From assembly GCF_001693735.1 (NCBI RefSeq), contig NZ_LWDV01000005.1, forward strand, positions 129,523 through 177,666: a stretch of DNA of 48,144 nucleotides. The letters are read 5' to 3'. The notes below the pieces were generated by a model. That model was not told the origin of the DNA, made no database searches, and saw only the letters and a list, made by a program, of their open reading frames with translations. Origin of the DNA: Orenia metallireducens. Its GTDB lineage: Bacteria > Bacillota > Halanaerobiia > Halobacteroidales > Halobacteroidaceae. The translations under genes and the position numbers were made by a program. Positions 35,561-47,787 of the stretch are shown one piece after another. Positions within the stretch are counted from its first letter, which is position 1; every line of letters begins with the position of its first letter.

Positions 35561-36493
35561 ATGATTATAACAGTAACTTTAAATCCTGCTATAGACAAGA
35601 CTGTTGAATTATTAGATTTTAAGGTTGGAGCATTAAATCGGATTAAATCTGTTAGAAAAGATGCTGGTGGTAAAGGGATTAATGTATCAAAGGTAATTGC
35701 TGAATTAGATGGTAATACAAAAGCTTTAGGTTTTGTAGGAGGCAGTAATGGTCAGTTTATTAAAGATAGGTTGACTGGTGCTGGAATTAAGCATTCTTTT
35801 ACTGAAGTAGAAGGTGAGACTCGTACCAATTTAAAGATTATTGATCTTGCTACTACTGATGAGACAGAGGTCAACGAACCAGGTCCCAATATTAGCAGAG
35901 ATGATTTAGTTAATTTAGAAGAAAATTTATTAAATAATATCACAAAGGAGAGTCTAGTAGTAGTAGCTGGCAGCCTGCCTTTAGGTGTTCCAGAAGACTT
36001 TTATGCTCAATTAATAGATAAACTACATGGTAAAGGTGTTAAAGTCGTCTTAGATACATCAGGGCTTCCTTTAATGAAGGCTTTGGAAGCAAAACCTTAT
36101 CTAATCAAGCCAAATCTAGATGAACTGGAGAAGTTAATTAACAAATCATTGAAAGAAACTGAAGAGATTATTGGTGCAGCTAAAGAACTCCATCAAAAAG
36201 GGATTGAGATTATAATTGTTTCTTTAGGCGGAGATGGTTCAATAGTTGTCAGTGAGGCTGGAGTCTTAAAAATAAAGCCTCCTAAGATTGAAGTGGCCAG
36301 TTCTGTCGGGGCAGGTGATACCTTAGTAGGAGCTCTATCCTTGAAACTAAGTCAAGGAGAAGACCTAAAAGAAGCTATCCGTTATGCTACTGCAGCTAGT
36401 GCTAATACTGTTATGCAGGCAGGTACCCAAATCTGTAAAAAGGATGAAGTGGAAGAGTTATTAGGTCAAGTTGAGATAGAAATTTTAGAATAA
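35561..36493 (+). CDS. fruK: 1-phosphofructokinase
   Basis: This 310-residue PfkB-family kinase converts fructose-1-phosphate to fructose-1,6-bisphosphate. The first PfkB pattern is in GGKGINVSKVIAEL (near 38). The C-terminal pattern has the catalytic base in VGAGDTLVGAL (near 250). The FruK/LacC opening TVTLNPAIDKTVEL and the SLGGDGS block are also present. GGGGGTGAG precedes the ATG. It lies 11 bases after fruR and 15 before the EIIA gene, so all are one transcript. Confidence 0.96.
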   Translation: MIITVTLNPAIDKTVELLDFKVGALNRIKSVRKDAGGKGINVSKVIAELDGNTKALGFVGGSNGQFIKDRLTGAGIKHSFTEVEGETRTNLKIIDLATTDETEVNEPGPNISRDDLVNLEENLLNNITKESLVVVAGSLPLGVPEDFYAQLIDKLHGKGVKVVLDTSGLPLMKALEAKPYLIKPNLDELEKLINKSLKETEEIIGAAKELHQKGIEIIIVSLGGDGSIVVSEAGVLKIKPPKIEVASSVGAGDTLVGALSLKLSQGEDLKEAIRYATAASANTVMQAGTQICKKDEVEELLGQVEIEILE

Positions 36494-36508
36494 GGGAGTT
36501 GAAAATAG

Positions 36509-36961
36509 ATGAAAATTAGTAATTTAATGAGGGAAGATTTAATCAAGCTTAATTTAGCTAATAATACTAAAAATGAAGTTTTAGCAGAGATGGTAGATTT
36601 ATTAGATGCTGCTGATAAAATCACTTCTAAGGATGAGTTTTATCAGACAATTTTAGCCAGAGAAGCTAAGAGCACAACAGGTGTAGGAAATGGAATTGCT
36701 ATTCCTCATGGTAAAAGTGATGTCGTTAAAGAGCCGACTTTAGTTTTTGCTAAGTCAGAGCAAGGTGTTGATTTTGATAGTTTTGATGATCAGCCAGTAA
36801 AAATCTTATTTATGATTGCAGTACCTGAAGGTAAGAATGATGAGCATCTTAAAGTATTGGCTCAATTATCTCGTAAATTGATGCATGCAGATTTTAGAGA
36901 AGCATTGATGAATGCTAATACAAAAGAAGATATCTTGACAGTTATCAAAGAAAATGAGTAA
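36509..36961 (+). CDS. PTS fructose-specific EIIA component
   Basis: This is a 150-residue single EIIA domain of the fructose/mannitol family. The phosphorylated histidine is in GVGNGIAIPHGKSD (about residue 66). VKILFMIAVPEGKNDEHLKVLAQLSRKLM is the other typical block. In many bacteria this domain is fused to EIIBC. Here it is a free protein encoded 147 bases ahead of the EIIBC gene. Confidence 0.94.
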   Translation: MKISNLMREDLIKLNLANNTKNEVLAEMVDLLDAADKITSKDEFYQTILAREAKSTTGVGNGIAIPHGKSDVVKEPTLVFAKSEQGVDFDSFDDQPVKILFMIAVPEGKNDEHLKVLAQLSRKLMHADFREALMNANTKEDILTVIKENE

Positions 36962-37108
36962 TTCTTAAGAGTAATCAATCTAGTAGCTAGAGTAGATTCC
37001 ATAAATAATTCTATAAGATCCCCAATCATAGTATCTTCACTTAAGAGGGTATTAGTAGATGGAGTTTACTAAAATATAAATAACTATTATTTTAAAGGGG
37101 GAAATAAA

Positions 37109-38485
37109 ATGAGAATATTAGCTGTAACTGCTTGTCCAACTGGTGTAGCTCATACTTATATGGCTGCAGAGGCTTTAGAAGGAGCTGCTAAAGAAAAAGG
37201 GATTGATATTAAAGTAGAGACTAGGGGTTCTGTAGGGATAGAGAATGGATTAACTCCAGAGGATATTAAGGAAGCAGAAGCAATTATTGTTGCTGCTGAC
37301 ACTGATGCAGATGTAGATCGTTTTAAAGGAAAGGCTGTTATATCAGTACCTGTAGGAGCTGCCATTAAGGACCCTAAAGGCTTGATTGAAGAGGCTTTAG
37401 AGAAGGCTAAAGACTTTGAACCAGAAGAGGATTTATTAGATAATGTCCAACAACACAAAGCAGAAAGAAGTTCTCAAAGAAGTGGATTCTATAAGCACTT
37501 AATGAATGGTGTTTCTAATATGCTACCCTTTGTGGTTGCTGGTGGTTTGGCAATTGCCCTCTCCTTTGTCTTTGGTATTAAGGCTTTTGAGCAAGAGGGA
37601 ACTTTGGCTGCAGCATTAATGACAATTGGTGGAGGAACAGCCTTTGCTTTGATGATTCCAGTATTGGCAGGATTTATCGCTAGCTCTATTGCAGATCGTC
37701 CTGGTTTTGCTCCTGGTATGGTTGGTGGTATGCTGGCTGCTAATATCGGTGCTGGTTTCTTAGGTGGACTAGTAGCAGGTTTCTTAGCTGGTTATATTAC
37801 TAAGTTCTTAAATGACAACATTAAGTTACCTAAGAACTTCCAAGGATTAAAGCCAGTCTTGATTCTACCTTTGTTATCTGTATTAATTGTTGGTTTATTG
37901 ATGGTTTATGTACTTGGAACACCGATGAAGAATATTATGGATGCTCTTACTGCTTGGTTACAAGGTATGTCTGGAACCAATAGAGTACTATTGGGATTGA
38001 TTTTAGGTGCAATGATGGCCTTTGATATGGGTGGACCTGTTAATAAAGCTGCTTATACCTTTGCAACTGGATTATTGGCATCTGAGGTTTATGCACCAAT
38101 GGCAGCTGTAATGGCAGCTGGTATGGTACCTCCATTAGGTCTTGCTTTGGCTACATTTATTGCTCCAAAGAAATTTGATAAGCAACAGAAAGAAGCTGGT
38201 AAGGCAGCAGCAGTACTAGGTATCTCCTTTATTACAGAAGGTGCAATCCCATTTGCAGCAGCTGACCCAGTGAAGGTTATTCCTTCTATTATTGTTGGAT
38301 CTGCTACAACAGGTGCCTTATCAATGTTATTTAATGCTACTTTAAGAGCACCTCATGGTGGAATCTTTACTGTATTCATTCCTGGAGCTGTAGGAAATGT
38401 AGTTATGTATGCAATATCTATCTTGGTTGGTACTATAGTTTCTGCTGTTCTAATCAGTATTTTAAAGGATGAAGTGAAAGCTTAA
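37109..38485 (+). CDS. fruA: PTS fructose-specific EIIBC component
   Basis: This 458-residue sugar transporter has an EIIB domain (1-100) with the phosphocysteine in TACPTGVAHTYMAAEAL (C9). A charged linker leads to a membrane EIIC domain (about 125-455) with GGLAIALSFVFGI, DMGGPVNKAAYTFA, FITEGAIPFAAADP and LRAPHGGIF, all typical of the fructose family. It imports fructose as fructose-1-phosphate for FruK. AAAGGGGG precedes the ATG. The EIIA gene is separate. Confidence 0.96.
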   Translation: MRILAVTACPTGVAHTYMAAEALEGAAKEKGIDIKVETRGSVGIENGLTPEDIKEAEAIIVAADTDADVDRFKGKAVISVPVGAAIKDPKGLIEEALEKAKDFEPEEDLLDNVQQHKAERSSQRSGFYKHLMNGVSNMLPFVVAGGLAIALSFVFGIKAFEQEGTLAAALMTIGGGTAFALMIPVLAGFIASSIADRPGFAPGMVGGMLAANIGAGFLGGLVAGFLAGYITKFLNDNIKLPKNFQGLKPVLILPLLSVLIVGLLMVYVLGTPMKNIMDALTAWLQGMSGTNRVLLGLILGAMMAFDMGGPVNKAAYTFATGLLASEVYAPMAAVMAAGMVPPLGLALATFIAPKKFDKQQKEAGKAAAVLGISFITEGAIPFAAADPVKVIPSIIVGSATTGALSMLFNATLRAPHGGIFTVFIPGAVGNVVMYAISILVGTIVSAVLISILKDEVKA

Positions 38486-40460: not shown

Positions 40461-40531
40461 TTAGGGGGACACTTTGAGGTTTCCCTTTTAACTTTGTACA
40501 TCAATTAATCATAGAAGAGGTGATGATTTTG

Positions 40532-41500
40532 TTGAAGATAGGAGATGTAATAATAGATAATCCAGTTATTTTGGCACCAATGGCTGGTATCACAGACTTA
40601 CCTTATAGAAAGCTGGTTAAAGGGATGGGATGTGGCTTGGTTTGTACAGAGATGGTCAGTGCCAATGGTTTAGTTTATGAGAATCAAAGGACTGAGAAGC
40701 TGTTGGAGGTTGCTCAAGAAGAGAGACCAGTTTCACTCCAGATATTTGGTAATGATCCTGAAGTGATGGCTCAAGCAGCTAAGAAGGTAGAAGAGGAGAG
40801 TAATCCAGAGATAATCGATTTAAATGTAGGTTGTCCTACCCCCAAAATAGTTAAGAATGGCTATGGTTCAGCTTTAATGAAGGAGCCTAAGTTATTGGGA
40901 GAGGTTATCAAAGCTATGGTAGAGGCAGTAAATAAGCCTGTCACCGTTAAAATTAGAACTGGTTGGGACCAAGATAGTATCAATGCTGTAGAGATAGCTC
41001 AAGTTGCTGAGGAGAATGGAGCTAAAGCTATTGCAGTTCATGGGAGGACTAGAAGTCAGTTCTACAGTGGTAAAGCAGATTGGGAGATTATAGCCCAAGT
41101 TAAAGAAGCTGTATCAATACCTGTAATAGGAAATGGTGATATCTTTAAACCAGAGGATGCTTTAAAGATGATTGAGATGACAAAGTGTGATGGAGTAATG
41201 ATCGGCAGAGGTGCTCAAGGTAATCCATGGATATTTAAAAGAACTTCTCATTATCTTAAAACTGGTGTGTTATTACCTCTTCCTACTCCAGTAGAGAAGA
41301 TAGAGACAGCGATTGTACATTTGGAGAATTTAGTTAATTATAAAGGGGAATATGTAGCAGTTAGAGAGATGCGTAAACATGCTAGTTGGTATATCAAGGG
41401 ATTGAAAAACTGCACATCTATTAAAGATCTTTTAAATCAAACAGAGAGTGTAAATGTGATGAATAGAATATTAAGAGAGTATCAAGAAAAGTTGAGCTGA
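40532..41500 (+). CDS. dusB: tRNA-dihydrouridine synthase
   Basis: This flavin enzyme of about 322 residues reduces uridines in tRNA. Family marks are the N-terminal VILAPMAGITDLPYRKL, NVGCPTPKIVKNGYGSALM with the catalytic cysteine, VKIRTGWD, AVHGRTRSQFYSG and GDIFKPEDAL, then MIGRGAQGNPWIF. Homologues begin MKIG, matching TTG 40532, eight bases after the AGAGGTGAT site. GTG 40520 and ATG 40523 are in frame but overlap that site. A strong terminator follows. Confidence 0.93.
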   Translation: MKIGDVIIDNPVILAPMAGITDLPYRKLVKGMGCGLVCTEMVSANGLVYENQRTEKLLEVAQEERPVSLQIFGNDPEVMAQAAKKVEEESNPEIIDLNVGCPTPKIVKNGYGSALMKEPKLLGEVIKAMVEAVNKPVTVKIRTGWDQDSINAVEIAQVAEENGAKAIAVHGRTRSQFYSGKADWEIIAQVKEAVSIPVIGNGDIFKPEDALKMIEMTKCDGVMIGRGAQGNPWIFKRTSHYLKTGVLLPLPTPVEKIETAIVHLENLVNYKGEYVAVREMRKHASWYIKGLKNCTSIKDLLNQTESVNVMNRILREYQEKLS

Positions 41501-41530: not shown

Positions 41531-41607
41531 TTTATACATAAATTTAAAATTATTATCACATATTAAAGTGAGAGTTCTTTAGTTTTAAACCTCAAGAGGT
41601 GAAATAT

Positions 41608-42522
41608 ATGAAAAGAGTAGTAAGCATAAGTTTAGGATCTTCTGCTAGAGACCATCGGGTACAACGGGAGATATTAGGAGAGCAGTTCATTATTGAGCGG
41701 ATAGGTACCGATGGTGATATGGATAAGGCTATTAAGATGTTTAATAATCTTGATGGTAAGGTAGATGCTTTTGGTTTAGGTGGAATAGACTTATACCTTT
41801 ATGCAGGTAAGAAACGATATCTGTTAAGAGATGCCAAGAAGATTATAAAAAATATCAATAAGACACCTATTGTTGATGGTAGTGGATTAAAAAATACTTT
41901 AGAGCGCAGGGCAATCAAGCAAGTTAACAAGAAAATTAACTTAAAAGATAAAAGGATTTTAATGGTTTGTGCTTTAGATAGATTTGGAATGGCAGAAGCC
42001 CTTAAAGATACTGGAGCTAAACTCTTGATTGGTGATTTAATCTTTGGATTGGGGATACCTATTCCTCTTAAATCATTAGGTACATTACATAATATAGCAC
42101 AGTTTATTATGCCTATTGTTAGTAAATTACCCTTTAAATTACTATACCCTACAGGAAGTAGGCAAGAAGAGATCAGAGATAAGTATAGCAAATATTATGA
42201 GTGGGCGGATATTATAGCAGGGGATTTTCATTATATAAAAAGATATTTACCAGCAAATTTAGGAGAAAGAATAATAATTACAAATACAGTCACACCCTCA
42301 GATATAGAGTTATTAAAGGAGAGAGGGTTAAGTAAATTAATCACAACAACACCAGAGTTTAGAGGTCGTTCTTTTGGTACTAATGTGATGGAAGCAATCT
42401 TAGTAACCTTGCTAGATAAGCCCTTAGATGAGATAAGGGTTTCAGATTACCTAAATATATTACGTGAAATTGATTTTGAGCCAAGGGTAGAAGAGTTTAA
42501 TCAGGGGTATTTAATCAGATAA
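41608..42522 (+). CDS. Conserved protein annotated in relatives as quinate 5-dehydrogenase-like
   Basis: This 304-residue protein opens MKRVVSISLGSSARDHRVQ and has VDAFGLGGIDLYLY, TPIVDGSGLKNTLER, ILMVCALDRFGMAEAL and a C-terminal TTPEFRGRSFGTNVMEA block. From memory, Firmicute relatives carry the name quinate 5-dehydrogenase. I see no unmistakable NAD-binding glycine motif to back that name. It is followed 87 bases later by an acyl-ACP-reductase-like gene and may work with it. ATG 41608 sits behind AAGAGGTG; an in-frame GTG nine bases earlier overlaps the ribosome site. Confidence 0.6.
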   Translation: MKRVVSISLGSSARDHRVQREILGEQFIIERIGTDGDMDKAIKMFNNLDGKVDAFGLGGIDLYLYAGKKRYLLRDAKKIIKNINKTPIVDGSGLKNTLERRAIKQVNKKINLKDKRILMVCALDRFGMAEALKDTGAKLLIGDLIFGLGIPIPLKSLGTLHNIAQFIMPIVSKLPFKLLYPTGSRQEEIRDKYSKYYEWADIIAGDFHYIKRYLPANLGERIIITNTVTPSDIELLKERGLSKLITTTPEFRGRSFGTNVMEAILVTLLDKPLDEIRVSDYLNILREIDFEPRVEEFNQGYLIR

Positions 42523-42609
42523 CTCCGTCTAGAAATGAGGGTATAAGATTCAAATTAGTAATATTGGTAGTTAGAAATTAATGAATCGTGATAATAAGGA
42601 GGCAAATTA

Positions 42610-43680
42610 ATGAAGAAATTTGGGTTTATAATTCACCCTCTTGATGTCAGTGATGTAGCAAGAAAATTTCCTGTCTCTAAATTCTTCTCTGATAGGTTAT
42701 TAGAGAATGTGCTTAAGGTAGTACCACCCTTTAAGGCATCACATATTACAGGAGTTGAATCAATTAAAGCTATTAAAGCCGAAGGGTGGTTTATCTGTTG
42801 TCCTTTAACTGCTAGACAGATGATTGAATTACCAACAGAAGATGTTATAGAGAAGATTATTGGAGCTGGAAGAAAGGCAGAAGAGCTAGGTGCAGATATT
42901 GTGGGATTGGGTGCATTTACTTCTGTGGTAGGAGATAAAGGTCTTACAGTAGCTAAAGCTCTTAATATTCCAGTGACTACAGGTAATAGTTATACAGTAG
43001 CTACAGCATTAGAAGGAATTGGTTTAGCAAGTGATATCATGGGGATAGATATGGGAAGAAGTAATATATTAATTGTAGGAGCTACTGGTTCTATAGGTAA
43101 AGCTTGTAGTAAAATATTAGCAAAAGATAATAAATATTTAATGTTGGTAGCTAGAAAAGAGGAGAAATTAAAGGAGTTAGCTGGTGAGTTGAAGAATAAT
43201 TATAATGTTCAAGTTGAAATTGGTACAGATTTAAATAGATTATTGCCAGAAGCAGATATTGTAGTGACTGTATCTAGTTCAGTAGATAGTTTAATTGATG
43301 TAAATCTATTGAAATCGGGAGCAATAGTCTGTGATATTGCTAGACCTCGTGATGTTGCAGAAGAGATAGCACTTAAAAGAGATGATATTTTAGTTATAGA
43401 TGGAGGGATAGTAGAGGTTCCAGGAGAAGTTGAATTTAATTTGAATTTTGGTTTTCCTAAAGGTACGTCTTATGCTTGCATGGCAGAGACTATGATCTTA
43501 TCTTTAGAAGGAAGATATGAAAATTATAGCTTAGGACCAGAGTTAGATTTAGAAAAAGTAATTGAAATCAGCAATTTAGCTGATAAGCATGGGTTTAGAT
43601 TATCAAGTTTGAGAAGCTTAGAGAGAGAGGTTACTTTACAACAGGTCAGTAAAGTGAGGAGAATAGTTAGCTCTACTTGA
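42610..43680 (+). CDS. Acyl-ACP-reductase-like dehydrogenase (COG5322)
   Basis: This 356-residue protein resembles cyanobacterial long-chain acyl-ACP reductase (AAR) throughout. Matching parts are FGFIIHPLDVSDV at the start, GADIVGLGAFTSVVG (about 94-108), VTTGNSYTVATALE, the Rossmann loop VGATGSIGKA (156-165), VIDGGIVEVPGE and SYACMAETMILSLEGRYENYSLG. C290 falls where AAR has its acyl-thioester cysteine, and KHGFRLS ends the conserved region. A fatty aldehyde-forming or other acyl-thioester reductase role is inferred. No aldehyde-deformylating oxygenase is seen. AAGGAGG precedes the ATG. Confidence 0.8.
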   Translation: MKKFGFIIHPLDVSDVARKFPVSKFFSDRLLENVLKVVPPFKASHITGVESIKAIKAEGWFICCPLTARQMIELPTEDVIEKIIGAGRKAEELGADIVGLGAFTSVVGDKGLTVAKALNIPVTTGNSYTVATALEGIGLASDIMGIDMGRSNILIVGATGSIGKACSKILAKDNKYLMLVARKEEKLKELAGELKNNYNVQVEIGTDLNRLLPEADIVVTVSSSVDSLIDVNLLKSGAIVCDIARPRDVAEEIALKRDDILVIDGGIVEVPGEVEFNLNFGFPKGTSYACMAETMILSLEGRYENYSLGPELDLEKVIEISNLADKHGFRLSSLRSLEREVTLQQVSKVRRIVSST

Positions 43681-43812: not shown

Positions 43813-44289
43813 ATGAAAGAGGAGAGAATTGTTATATCTCAGGAGGGTTTAGATAAATTAAAAGAAGAGTTACAACACCTTAGAGGGCCTAAACGGAAAG
43901 AGATTGCCAAAAGAATTAAAGAAGCAAGAGCATTGGGAGATATTAGTGAGAATTCAGAATACGATGATGCTAAGAATGAACAGGCCTTTATTGAAGGAAG
44001 AATTAGAGAATTAGAGCAGATGTTAAAGAATGCCGAAGTTATAAATACAGAAAACATTGATACTGGTAAAGTAAGCTTGGGAACTACAGTTAAAGTTAAA
44101 GATCTAGAGTTTGATGAGGAAGAGGAGTTTAAAATTGTAGGTCCTACTGAAGTCGATCCAGATGAAAATAGAATTTCTAATGTTTCTCCAATTGGGAAGG
44201 GCTTAATTGGTCATAAAGTTGGAGATACTGTTGAGATTGAAGTACCAGTAGGAACAGTAAAATTTGAAATATTATCAATTGAAAAATAA
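43813..44289 (+). CDS. greA: Transcription elongation factor GreA
   Basis: This factor of 158 residues rescues backtracked RNA polymerase. The N-terminal coiled coil (about 1-75) has [53 protein letters not shown] features; the acidic tip pair is in [13 protein letters not shown]. The C-terminal FKBP-like domain has [21 protein letters not shown]. The length is the family norm. It lies directly ahead of lysS, a common Firmicute order. Confidence 0.97.
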
Positions 44290-44336
44290 ATAATTTAAAT
44301 AGTAATAAATTTATGAAACTTGGGGGTATAGAGGTT

Positions 44337-45809
44337 ATGGTAGAAAATGAATTAAATGAGTTGATGATGGAACGTCGTAAAAAATTAGATGATTTGAATG
44401 AGGCAGGGATTGAAGCTTATAGTAATGAGTTTAACCGTGAGGATATAGTAGCGGATATATTAGAGAATTTTGAAGAGTTAGAAGCAGAAGATAAGGTTAT
44501 TAAGGCTGCTGGTCGTATCATGGCCTTTAGAAACCATGGCAAATCTTCTTTTGCAGATATTGTGGATATGTCTGGAAGGGTTCAAGTTTACGCTCAACAG
44601 AATAAACTTGGTGAAGAGCTTTATGAGTTATTTACTAGTCTAAATATCGGTGACCATGTTGGAGTAGAAGGTACTGTCTTTAAAACTAGACGTGGAGAAA
44701 TTAGCATTAGAGTTAAGAGCTTTAAATTATTGTCTAAATCTTTACGGCCATTACCAGAGAAATGGCATGGTTTAAAGGATGTTGAGCTAAGATATCGCCA
44801 AAGATATGTTGATTTAGTAGTAAACCCTGAAGTAAAAGAGAAATTTATTTTAAGAAGTCGGATTTTACATAAGATCAGAAGTTATTTAGAAGAAAAAGGT
44901 TTCTTAGAGGTTCAAACTCCCCTGATGCATCCAATTGCTGGTGGAGCATCTGCCAGACCTTTTGTAACCCATCACAATGCTTTGGATATCGATTTATATA
45001 TGAGAATTGCACCAGAGCTTTATCTAAAGAGATTATTAGTTGGTGGATTTGAAAAGGTATTTGAACTTGGTAAGAATATGAGAAATGAAGGGCTATCAAC
45101 TAAACATAATCCAGAATTTACTTCTTTGGAGTTATATGAGGCTTATGCTGATTATGAAGATATGATAGATATCACTGAAGATTTAATTAAAACAGTTGCT
45201 CAAGATGTATTAGGAACTTTAGAGATTTCATATGATGGTTTAGAAATTAATTTGGGTAATTGGGATAGAATAACTATGGTTGATTCTATTAAGAAATATG
45301 CTGGAGTTGATTTCTCTAAAGTAAGTACAGTAGAGAAAGCAAAGGCTTTAGCTAAAGAAAAAGGTGTTAACGTTGATGATAAGACATCTGTTGGGGAGAT
45401 TATAAATGAATTTTTTGAAGAGTTTGTAGAAGCCAAATTAATCCAACCAACATTTATCACACAATATCCTGTAGAAGTATCTCCATTGGCTAAACGTAAT
45501 CCAAATAATCCTGATTTTACAGATAGATTTGAATTGTTTATCGCAGGAAATGAGATAGCTAATGCTTTTTCTGAGCTTAATGACCCAATTGATCAAAAGA
45601 AAAGGTTTGAAGCTCAAGTATCCCAAAGAGAAGCAGGAGATGATGAAGCTCATATGATGGATGAAGACTTTATTAGGGCATTGGAGTATGGAATGCCACC
45701 TGCAGGAGGATTAGGGATTGGAATAGATAGATTAATCATGTTATTAACAGATTCACCATCTATTAGAGAGGTTATCTTCTTCCCTCATTTAAGACCAGAG
45801 GTAAAATAA
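44337..45809 (+). CDS. lysS: Lysyl-tRNA synthetase (class II)
   Basis: This 490-residue class II enzyme has an N-terminal OB-fold anticodon-binding domain (about 55-150, [17 protein letters not shown]). The catalytic core carries motif 1 around [13 protein letters not shown], motif 2 [17 protein letters not shown] and motif 3 [16 protein letters not shown] 44337 matches homologues ([14 protein letters not shown]) and follows GGGGG and GAGG. An in-frame ATG 24 bases earlier is possible. It is 47 bases from greA and is ended by a terminator. Confidence 0.97.
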
Positions 45810-45867: not shown

Positions 45868-45973
45868 GTTTTTTTATCTAATAAATTTATATAAAAAGCA
45901 CCTCTAACATATGTTATAATAAGATTTAGGATAATAATTAGAGACAATTGCTAAATAATAAGAGGTGTTGAGA

Positions 45974-47224
45974 GTGTTAAAAAAAATAGCAGTAATTGTA
46001 ACGACATTGTTTTTAGCTTTATTATTTTCTTTTAATGTTGATGCGGGATTTGTGTTGGAGTATAAAAGTAATTTAGATTTAGAAGATTATAGTCAAATTA
46101 ATATGGATCAAAAATCCCTTATATCTAATAGGATTACTCTCAATTTTCCTGTCAGGGATAAAGGAGATTATAGTTTAAGTAAGGAGGAATTAGTATCTCC
46201 TCATTATACTTATTCTAAAGATGTTAGAGGTATATATATAAATGGTTGGGTAGTAGGCAATGAAAGAAAGACTGATAATTTGATAAAAGAGGTTGAAGAG
46301 AGTAATTTGAACTCTATTGTAGTTGATCTAAAGGATGTAACAGGTCGTATTATCTTTTCTAAGAATCAGAGAGATATTTCACAGTTGTTTGAAAACGGGC
46401 TGAAAGAGTTAATAGATAAAGCTCATAAAAAGGGTATATATGTTATTGGAAGGTTAGCCGTTTTTAAAGACCCTGTTTTAGCTAATAAAGATTCGAAATA
46501 TTCTTTGAAATATATATCAGCTAGTGATAATGAAACTATAATTAACAGTGATGTTTGGGTTAGTCCTTATTCAAAAGAGGTTTGGGAGTATAATATAAAG
46601 ATATCAGAACAAGCAGTTAAATTAGGATTAGATGAGATTCAGTTTGATTATATTAGATTCCCTACTTTGGCAGTAAATAGTAAGTTGATTATCAAAACAG
46701 AAGAGAATAAGTCAAGAACAGATGCTATAGTAGGTTTTTTGAAGTTTGCTAATGAGAGGTTAAAAAAATATAATGTTTTGATTTCTGCAGATGTATTTGG
46801 CTTAACTACAACCGCTAAAGGTGATTTAAAGATAGGACAGGATATTACAAGATTAGTAGATTATGTAGATTATCTATCACCAATGATTTATCCTTCTCAT
46901 TATAGTTCGGGATTCTATGGAATAGATAATCCTGATAGTAATCCATATGATATAATTTTTGAAAGCTTAGAAGATGCTAGAGAGAAGTTGGGAGATAAGA
47001 GTTATAAATTAAGACCTTGGTTACAAGATTTTTCTTTAAGACATATATATACAGATAAAGAAGTTAAGGAACAGATAAAAGCCGTAAAGGATAATCAGAT
47101 ATCTAGTTGGTTATTATGGAACCCTAGATCAATTTATACAATTAGTGCAGTAAAAGATGATAGTAAGAAGGGAATGGAAGAAAGATGGAATTTACAGGGG
47201 AGCGAGTTATTCCAGAAGAGATGA
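45974..47224 (+). CDS. Secreted DUF4015-type putative glycoside hydrolase
   Basis: This 416-residue exported protein has a signal peptide (LKKIAVIVTTLFLALLFSF, cut near VDAG). A TIM-barrel-like domain (about 75-400) of the DUF4015 family follows. Motifs are RGIYINGWVVG, SIVVDLKDVTG, IQFDYIRFP (a likely acidic catalytic strand), ISADVFGLTT and LSPMIYPSHY. It probably acts on a wall or exopolysaccharide, but no substrate has been set for the family. AGAGGTG lies six bases before GTG 45974; GTG 45965 is the alternative. Its end overlaps the next gene by 40 bases. Confidence 0.88.
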   Translation: MLKKIAVIVTTLFLALLFSFNVDAGFVLEYKSNLDLEDYSQINMDQKSLISNRITLNFPVRDKGDYSLSKEELVSPHYTYSKDVRGIYINGWVVGNERKTDNLIKEVEESNLNSIVVDLKDVTGRIIFSKNQRDISQLFENGLKELIDKAHKKGIYVIGRLAVFKDPVLANKDSKYSLKYISASDNETIINSDVWVSPYSKEVWEYNIKISEQAVKLGLDEIQFDYIRFPTLAVNSKLIIKTEENKSRTDAIVGFLKFANERLKKYNVLISADVFGLTTTAKGDLKIGQDITRLVDYVDYLSPMIYPSHYSSGFYGIDNPDSNPYDIIFESLEDAREKLGDKSYKLRPWLQDFSLRHIYTDKEVKEQIKAVKDNQISSWLLWNPRSIYTISAVKDDSKKGMEERWNLQGSELFQKR

Positions 47225-47787
47225 ATCCTAGAAATGGTTTAGTGATTGAACATATAGCTAGATATAAATTTGCTAGTAGATTTGCTAGGGGAAGGGTTTT
47301 AGATATCGCCTGTGGAGTAGGGTATGGAAGCGAAATTTTAATGGCAATGGGTGAAGGGATTGATGAGATAGTAGGAGTAGATATAGATGAAGAGTCAATT
47401 GAATATGCAAAAAGGGTATATAAGTATCCTTGGAATAGTTTTTTAGTAGGAGATGTTAATGATGAGGGTCTCTGTGATGAAATAGGTAAGTTTGATACTA
47501 TTGTTAGTATGGAAACAATAGAGCATATTAAAGATGATTACACTTTTGTTAATAATTTAAAAAGTTTATTAAAGGAAGATGGTTTATTGATTATATCCAC
47601 TCCTTTTGGAAGAGGTAGAGACTTTGAATGTGTTAATCCATATCACTATAGACAATATACTGAAGAAGAATTTAGAGAAGTATTAGGTTTATTTTCAGAA
47701 ATAGATTTGTATTGCCAATGTGATAAGACCATAGAAAAGCCGATTAAAGGTAAAGATTACTATCTAATGGTCGCTTTATGTAAATAA
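47185..47787 (+). CDS. Class I SAM-dependent methyltransferase
   Basis: This 200-residue methyltransferase has the AdoMet motif VLDIACGVGYGSEIL (about 38-52), the acidic ribose ligand in VGVDID, motif II around FDTIVSMETIEH and a post-loop LLIISTPFG. The opening EFTGERVIPEEMNPRNG is typical of a small-molecule or polysaccharide-modifying group. The gene begins 40 bases inside the end of the preceding secreted protein gene, so translation is coupled. The substrate is unknown. Confidence 0.9.
   Translation: MEFTGERVIPEEMNPRNGLVIEHIARYKFASRFARGRVLDIACGVGYGSEILMAMGEGIDEIVGVDIDEESIEYAKRVYKYPWNSFLVGDVNDEGLCDEIGKFDTIVSMETIEHIKDDYTFVNNLKSLLKEDGLLIISTPFGRGRDFECVNPYHYRQYTEEEFREVLGLFSEIDLYCQCDKTIEKPIKGKDYYLMVALCK

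Follow-up and report, generated by a model that had tools for sequence, protein, structure and literature searches.

Two adjacent genes of Orenia metallireducens, here called A and B, lie within the window (the whole 48,144-nucleotide stretch of DNA analysed, positions 129,523 to 177,666 of contig NZ_LWDV01000005.1), and on balance we favour, with modest confidence, the reading that B is a reductase of the AAR/PigE/TamH kind, that a separately encoded transaminase turns its product into an amine and that A is a constant partner with a probable fold like that of acyl-ACP reductase (AAR). We infer that an acyl chain would pass from ACP or CoA onto Cys290 of B, that hydride from NAD(P)H would free it as an aldehyde and that a class III PLP aminotransferase, encoded by its own gene, would convert the aldehyde into a primary, probably lipophilic amine, in effect a split version of the single-chain activity of PigE or TamH. 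The most likely role of protein A is to join the AAR-domain enzyme in a complex or to handle that enzyme's acyl substrate. Reactions of the kind ascribed to B are already known; in the literature that we found there is no description of its split arrangement, of partner A or of the repeated emergence of pseudoenzymes reported below. If right, this reading would assign a function that can be tested to two genes with poor names, carried by most species in a large group of anaerobic Firmicutes. It would also predict lipophilic amines of a class so far unreported in these organisms, and supply a natural series in which copies of one enzyme, next to an unvarying partner, run from active through freshly dead to fully decayed.

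A conserved gene pair between dusB and greA

Gene A (41608–42522, 304 aa) and gene B (42610–43680, 356 aa) follow dusB (40520–41500) and precede greA (43813–44289) and lysS (44313–45809), all on the forward strand. The open reading frame of A could begin at 41599 or 41608, and the ATG at 41608 agrees with the starts of its homologues. The pair is common among anaerobic Firmicutes and, of 80 loci sampled from a total of at least 550, most kept the order dusB-A-B-greA-lysS, bearing out the conservation of the two-gene order that the first-pass annotation had proposed as a check. Approximately 70 columns were invariant among 25 homologues of B (47–76% identity to the window protein), as were 55 among 22 homologues of A (52–71%); given these conserved columns neither gene is a chance open reading frame, and the earlier description of A as a conserved, uncharacterised partner upstream of B holds. 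Elsewhere in the window, positions 35561–38485 resemble a typical fructose PTS operon, with genes for a phosphofructokinase-like kinase, an EIIA-like protein and EIIBC, and 45965–47224 encodes a putative glycosyl hydrolase (DUF4015) whose end overlaps a methyltransferase gene at 47185–47787.

Family and active site of B

Full-length homology together with the catalytic cysteine places B in the AAR/PigE/TamH thioester reductase superfamily (COG5322-like), within which family scores suggest a nearer relationship to PigE's reductase domain than to cyanobacterial AAR. Residues 3–352 matched the PigE model NF053554 (NCBIfam) with 238 bits (E = 2.4e-70), below its equivalog cut-off of 850 bits and over the reductase part only, whereas the cyanobacterial AAR model TIGR04058 gave 128 bits (E = 4.6e-37) against a cut-off of 449.7. 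Similarly, the best sequence match in the PDB was PigE (4ppm, 1e-40), with AAR (6jzq) at 6e-26, and the Pfam match was to Shikimate_DH, through the Rossmann part. We placed B by these scores since a tree of B with AAR and PigE, in which a single AAR sequence sat on a branch of length 3.1 among weak forks, cannot decide which of the two is nearer; the same tree united the transaminase-AAR fusions in one clade (100/98).

The active site itself is that of the family. In a phmmer alignment to 6jzq, Gly157, Gly160 and Gly163 of B correspond to Gly162, Gly165 and Gly168 of AAR, in a GATGSIG nucleotide-binding loop (codons 157–163, positions 43078–43098, forward strand; AAR 162–168), and the putative acyl-cysteine Cys290, within YACMAE (codon at 43477–43479, forward strand), is invariant and corresponds to AAR Cys294. 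Intact copies of B retain Cys290, the GxxGxxG pattern and TTGNSYT (residues 123–129 here). The loop and acyl-cysteine picked out in the first-pass annotation thus align as it had supposed; its epithet ‘cyanobacterial-type’ did not survive, in view of the family scores and of the patch through which AAR docks aldehyde-deformylating oxygenase (ADO), which is mostly gone. Of the three AAR residues concerned, Arg73, Arg79 and Lys80 (PMC7089970), the first two are replaced by Pro75 and Glu81 in B and Lys80 alone is retained. No match to the ADO family PF11266 was found in the whole genome (the control genome of S. elongatus was positive), as the annotation had also claimed, so any aldehyde would have another fate.

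B shares with cyanobacterial AAR (TIGR04058) a fold family, the GATGxIG loop, the acyl-cysteine and about 30% identity, and differs from it in its changed residues, in the lack of ADO and in having the partner A. With PigE, B aligns over its full length to the N-terminal domain, and the separate transaminase matches the C-terminal domain; in contrast to PigE, there are two genes here, without a PigD/PigB cluster, with the extra partner A and with a conserved position among housekeeping genes. On plasmids, no relative of A was found, and the relatives of B there were mostly annotated as class III aminotransferases.

Co-occurrence of A, B and a transaminase

We surveyed 61 relatives and, as a second set, 249 genomes drawn evenly from the phylum. 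Gene A was present in 38 of the 61 relatives, accompanied in 28 by a standalone B (one of them a contig-edge fragment), in nine by a transaminase-AAR fusion elsewhere in the genome and in one by a decayed B, and none of the 23 relatives without A had either B or a fusion. Losses of A are scattered over several families, including one inside the window's own family (genome G003). Across the 249 genomes, 187 had A, 159 an AAR domain and 156 both (Fisher p = 3e-30, uncorrected for ancestry). An AAR domain is thus almost always accompanied by A, and A can occur without one, as in 31 of the 187 genomes at the threshold used.

With the transaminase domain of the fusion as query and a floor of 250 bits, a class III aminotransferase was found in 25 of the 28 relatives that have a standalone B, as against none of the 23 relatives lacking both A and B; in the nine fusion relatives the fused copy was the sole such transaminase. 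ArgD-type paralogues scored lower and started later in the query. The second set gave the same picture, with 23 of 25 genomes with intact B, none of 24 with A only and two of 17 with neither carrying the transaminase (23/25 against 0/24, Fisher p = 6e-12, uncorrected for ancestry); this association, like that of A with B, is confounded by phylogeny.

In O. metallireducens (genome G000) the transaminase lies at about 592864–594105 of contig 8, a different contig from A and B, and lies next to a gene for a START/polyketide-cyclase-like protein at about 594471–594929, a pair that is adjacent or nearly so in this and five other genomes. It scored 540 bits against NF008570 (cut-off 612) and could, from its sequence, be a putrescine aminotransferase; the separate transaminase at locus L229 had PigE as its best family (537 bits). 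The separate transaminase adjoins a monoglucosyldiacylglycerol-synthase-like glycosyltransferase at L229, L230, L231, L234 and L239, and at L229 also lies near a GT9 glycosyltransferase and a flippase-like protein. A glycolipid context for the transaminase was considered and set aside as too local, the diacylglycerol-glucosyltransferase-like neighbour being confined to these five loci. In Syntrophomonadaceae (L179, L181, L183, L185 and L187) a DUF1285_N-like gene adjoins the transaminase-AAR fusion, and one relative of the window organism encodes a second AAR-type protein with the domain order of PigE, AAR and then transaminase (L061:2601–7615; G009 contig 10), preceded by an 808-aa protein where PigD stands in prodigiosin clusters.

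Fate of the aldehyde and nature of the substrate

The route inferred for the window organism, from acyl thioester through aldehyde to amine, is the best supported because of published activities of related proteins: PigE couples thioester reduction to transamination (PMC8341465), PtTamH converts acyl thioesters into amines (PMC9594044) and fusions from the thermophilic Firmicutes Thermincola and Thermaerobacter have transaminase activity (PMC10829540). Elsewhere in the clade, fusions homologous to PtTamH, PpKTFusion and TfFusion stand in for B and the separate transaminase, whereas the genome of the window has the split form; the available text of the published accounts makes no mention of gene A.

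The aldehyde could instead be destined for an alcohol, a plasmalogen or a storage lipid, as the first-pass annotation had suggested, with the link to the transaminase reflecting shared ancestry only. Cyanobacterial AAR does release a free long-chain aldehyde (PMC7089970), this genome has no ADO to consume it, and in most genomes the separate transaminase lies outside the A-B operon. However, the transaminase tracks B, is fused to an AAR domain elsewhere in the clade, and stands inside the operon in two loci, L137 from Ca. Oleimmundimicrobium (HTH-A-transaminase-START-B) and L145 (A followed by a transaminase-AAR fusion). We therefore regard these fates as improbable beside the amine, and of the earlier claim retain only that the aldehyde does not go by way of ADO.

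A second possibility, which we also consider rather unlikely, accepts the reductase-transaminase chemistry and supposes a substrate other than a fatty acyl chain, such as a polyketide or amino-acyl thioester, leading to a small specialised amine or alkaloid precursor. In keeping with this, PigE, the KecF-type fusions and TamH serve specialised-metabolite pathways (PMC8341465, PMC10829540, PMC9594044), Tyr247 of the acyl tunnel of AAR is Arg245 in B, and Tyr23 and Tyr26 are Val22 and Phe26. Against it, A and B sit amid housekeeping genes, with no biosynthetic gene cluster found around them in the window or the conserved loci, A is as widespread in the phylum as the survey above indicates, and the protein adjoining the transaminase is START-like and lipid-binding, so that a fatty acyl substrate and a lipophilic amine product remain our preferred reading.

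Recurrent decay of B beside A

Most B genes retain all catalytic residues. In many genomes, however, a decayed B occupies the place between A and greA; its cysteine has become Ser, Trp, Asp, Arg, Ala, Tyr or Gly, its loop is broken and usually TTGNSYT is too. The B of genome G169 is near-normal (4e-157) yet carries C290S and GATVSIG, and further AAR-domain matches in that genome are consistent with a fusion. A series of stages can be followed through loci L204, L206, L207, L208, L210, L263 and L269, of which L206 and L263 retain the cysteine and have a changed loop. In Syntrophomonadaceae, the protein at the place of B has no detected sequence similarity to B; its predicted model (pLDDT only 70, from seven sequences) nonetheless matched carmabin TAD with Z 13.6 and AAR with Z 12.8, the next fold reaching 6.9. 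Mapped on a tree of LysS, the dead state of B required 14 label changes, of which well-supported branches forced 13; the figure counts gains or losses of the dead label and not inactivations as such, and we put the independent inactivations at about a dozen.

Such repeated loss of cysteine and loop, with the gene retained in place and, in Syntrophomonadaceae, with an AAR-like fold predicted after all similarity is lost, would be expected if A and B, live or dead, formed mainly a sensory or regulatory complex, in which the AAR fold binds acyl-ACP or acyl-CoA and NADPH, catalysis is dispensable and A relays a signal with an adjacent HTH protein. The occurrence of A without B fits this, as does an HTH gene that separates dusB from A in most other genomes; the protein, of approximately 180 aa and beginning ‘..RIGDKLI’, is encoded directly 5′ of A at L076:4402–4944, L162:949–1476 and most of L083–L160. 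Yet the HTH gene is absent from the window (between 41500 and 41599), and the prevalence of intact catalytic residues argues for an enzyme. Furthermore, a second AAR domain was present in seven of 14 genomes with a dead B as opposed to two of about 112 with a high-scoring B, most of the latter judged by score and not by reading the cysteine (249 genomes; Fisher p = 1e-6), as expected if the activity had been replaced. A purely sensory role is accordingly one to which we give little credence, slightly less than to either alternative above, and a working reductase followed by a transaminase remains the better account of intact B.

The partner A

Protein A is known by the database name quinate 5-dehydrogenase, in name only: it had no match in Pfam (E ≤ 1), in NCBIfam or, by sequence, in the PDB, and a literature search found no published work on the gene. 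Its 22 homologues share the signature motifs GTDGD, DRFGMA, GD(L/I)IF, TNTVT and GRSFGTN, and lack both GxxGxxG and a conserved cysteine. The many invariant polar residues suggest that A binds or acts on something. Its predicted model (pLDDT 87.5) likely adopts an AAR-like Rossmann fold; when the thousand best chains from Foldseek were aligned with VIA-align, AAR came top (Z 13.2 over 250 residues, rmsd 4.8), followed by carmabin TAD (Z 12.8) and then glutamate dehydrogenases (10.5), whereas in Foldseek's own ranking periplasmic binding proteins led with low TM-scores and AAR fell outside the top 50. Carmabin TAD (PDB 9e4x, name as deposited) is an AAR-fold domain with a reactive cysteine that matches both A and the decayed B-like proteins in structure; it differs in being part of a carmabin biosynthesis protein, and its likeness to A is at fold level only. 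A profile comparison gave a 1.4% probability of a link between A and B, and a sequence-detectable paralogy of the two was dropped, structure alone hinting at it. That A acts as a genuine dehydrogenase of quinate or shikimate, forming a shikimate-type pair with B, is highly implausible: apart from the name, which the first-pass annotation had rightly doubted, it has in its favour a shikimate dehydrogenase among the structural matches (Z 9.2), well below AAR, and neither the Pfam Shikimate_DH match nor the glycine-rich loop that such an enzyme would call for.

The 31 genomes that have A without any AAR domain, together with the lack of the transaminase in all 24 of the A-only genomes examined, indicate that A does something independent of the pathway. 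More tentatively, we speculate that A and its neighbour form a lasting two-subunit complex of AAR folds, in which A would be an obligate non-reductive subunit, a substrate gate or acyl-ACP sensor, and B could be live, replaced by a fusion or reduced to a dead scaffold. Were this so, acyl thioesters would be processed or sensed by a complex of a new type, tied to an unreported lipophilic amine and carried by most species in a large clade of spore-forming anaerobes. Sporulation was rejected as the explanation for the distribution of A, since B is more tightly correlated with A than the spore-coat ATPase SpoIVA is, and some genomes with A have no SpoIVA. Spo0A was present in nearly all relatives and, among the 249 genomes, A was much commoner in those with SpoIVA (178/213) than in those without (9/36).
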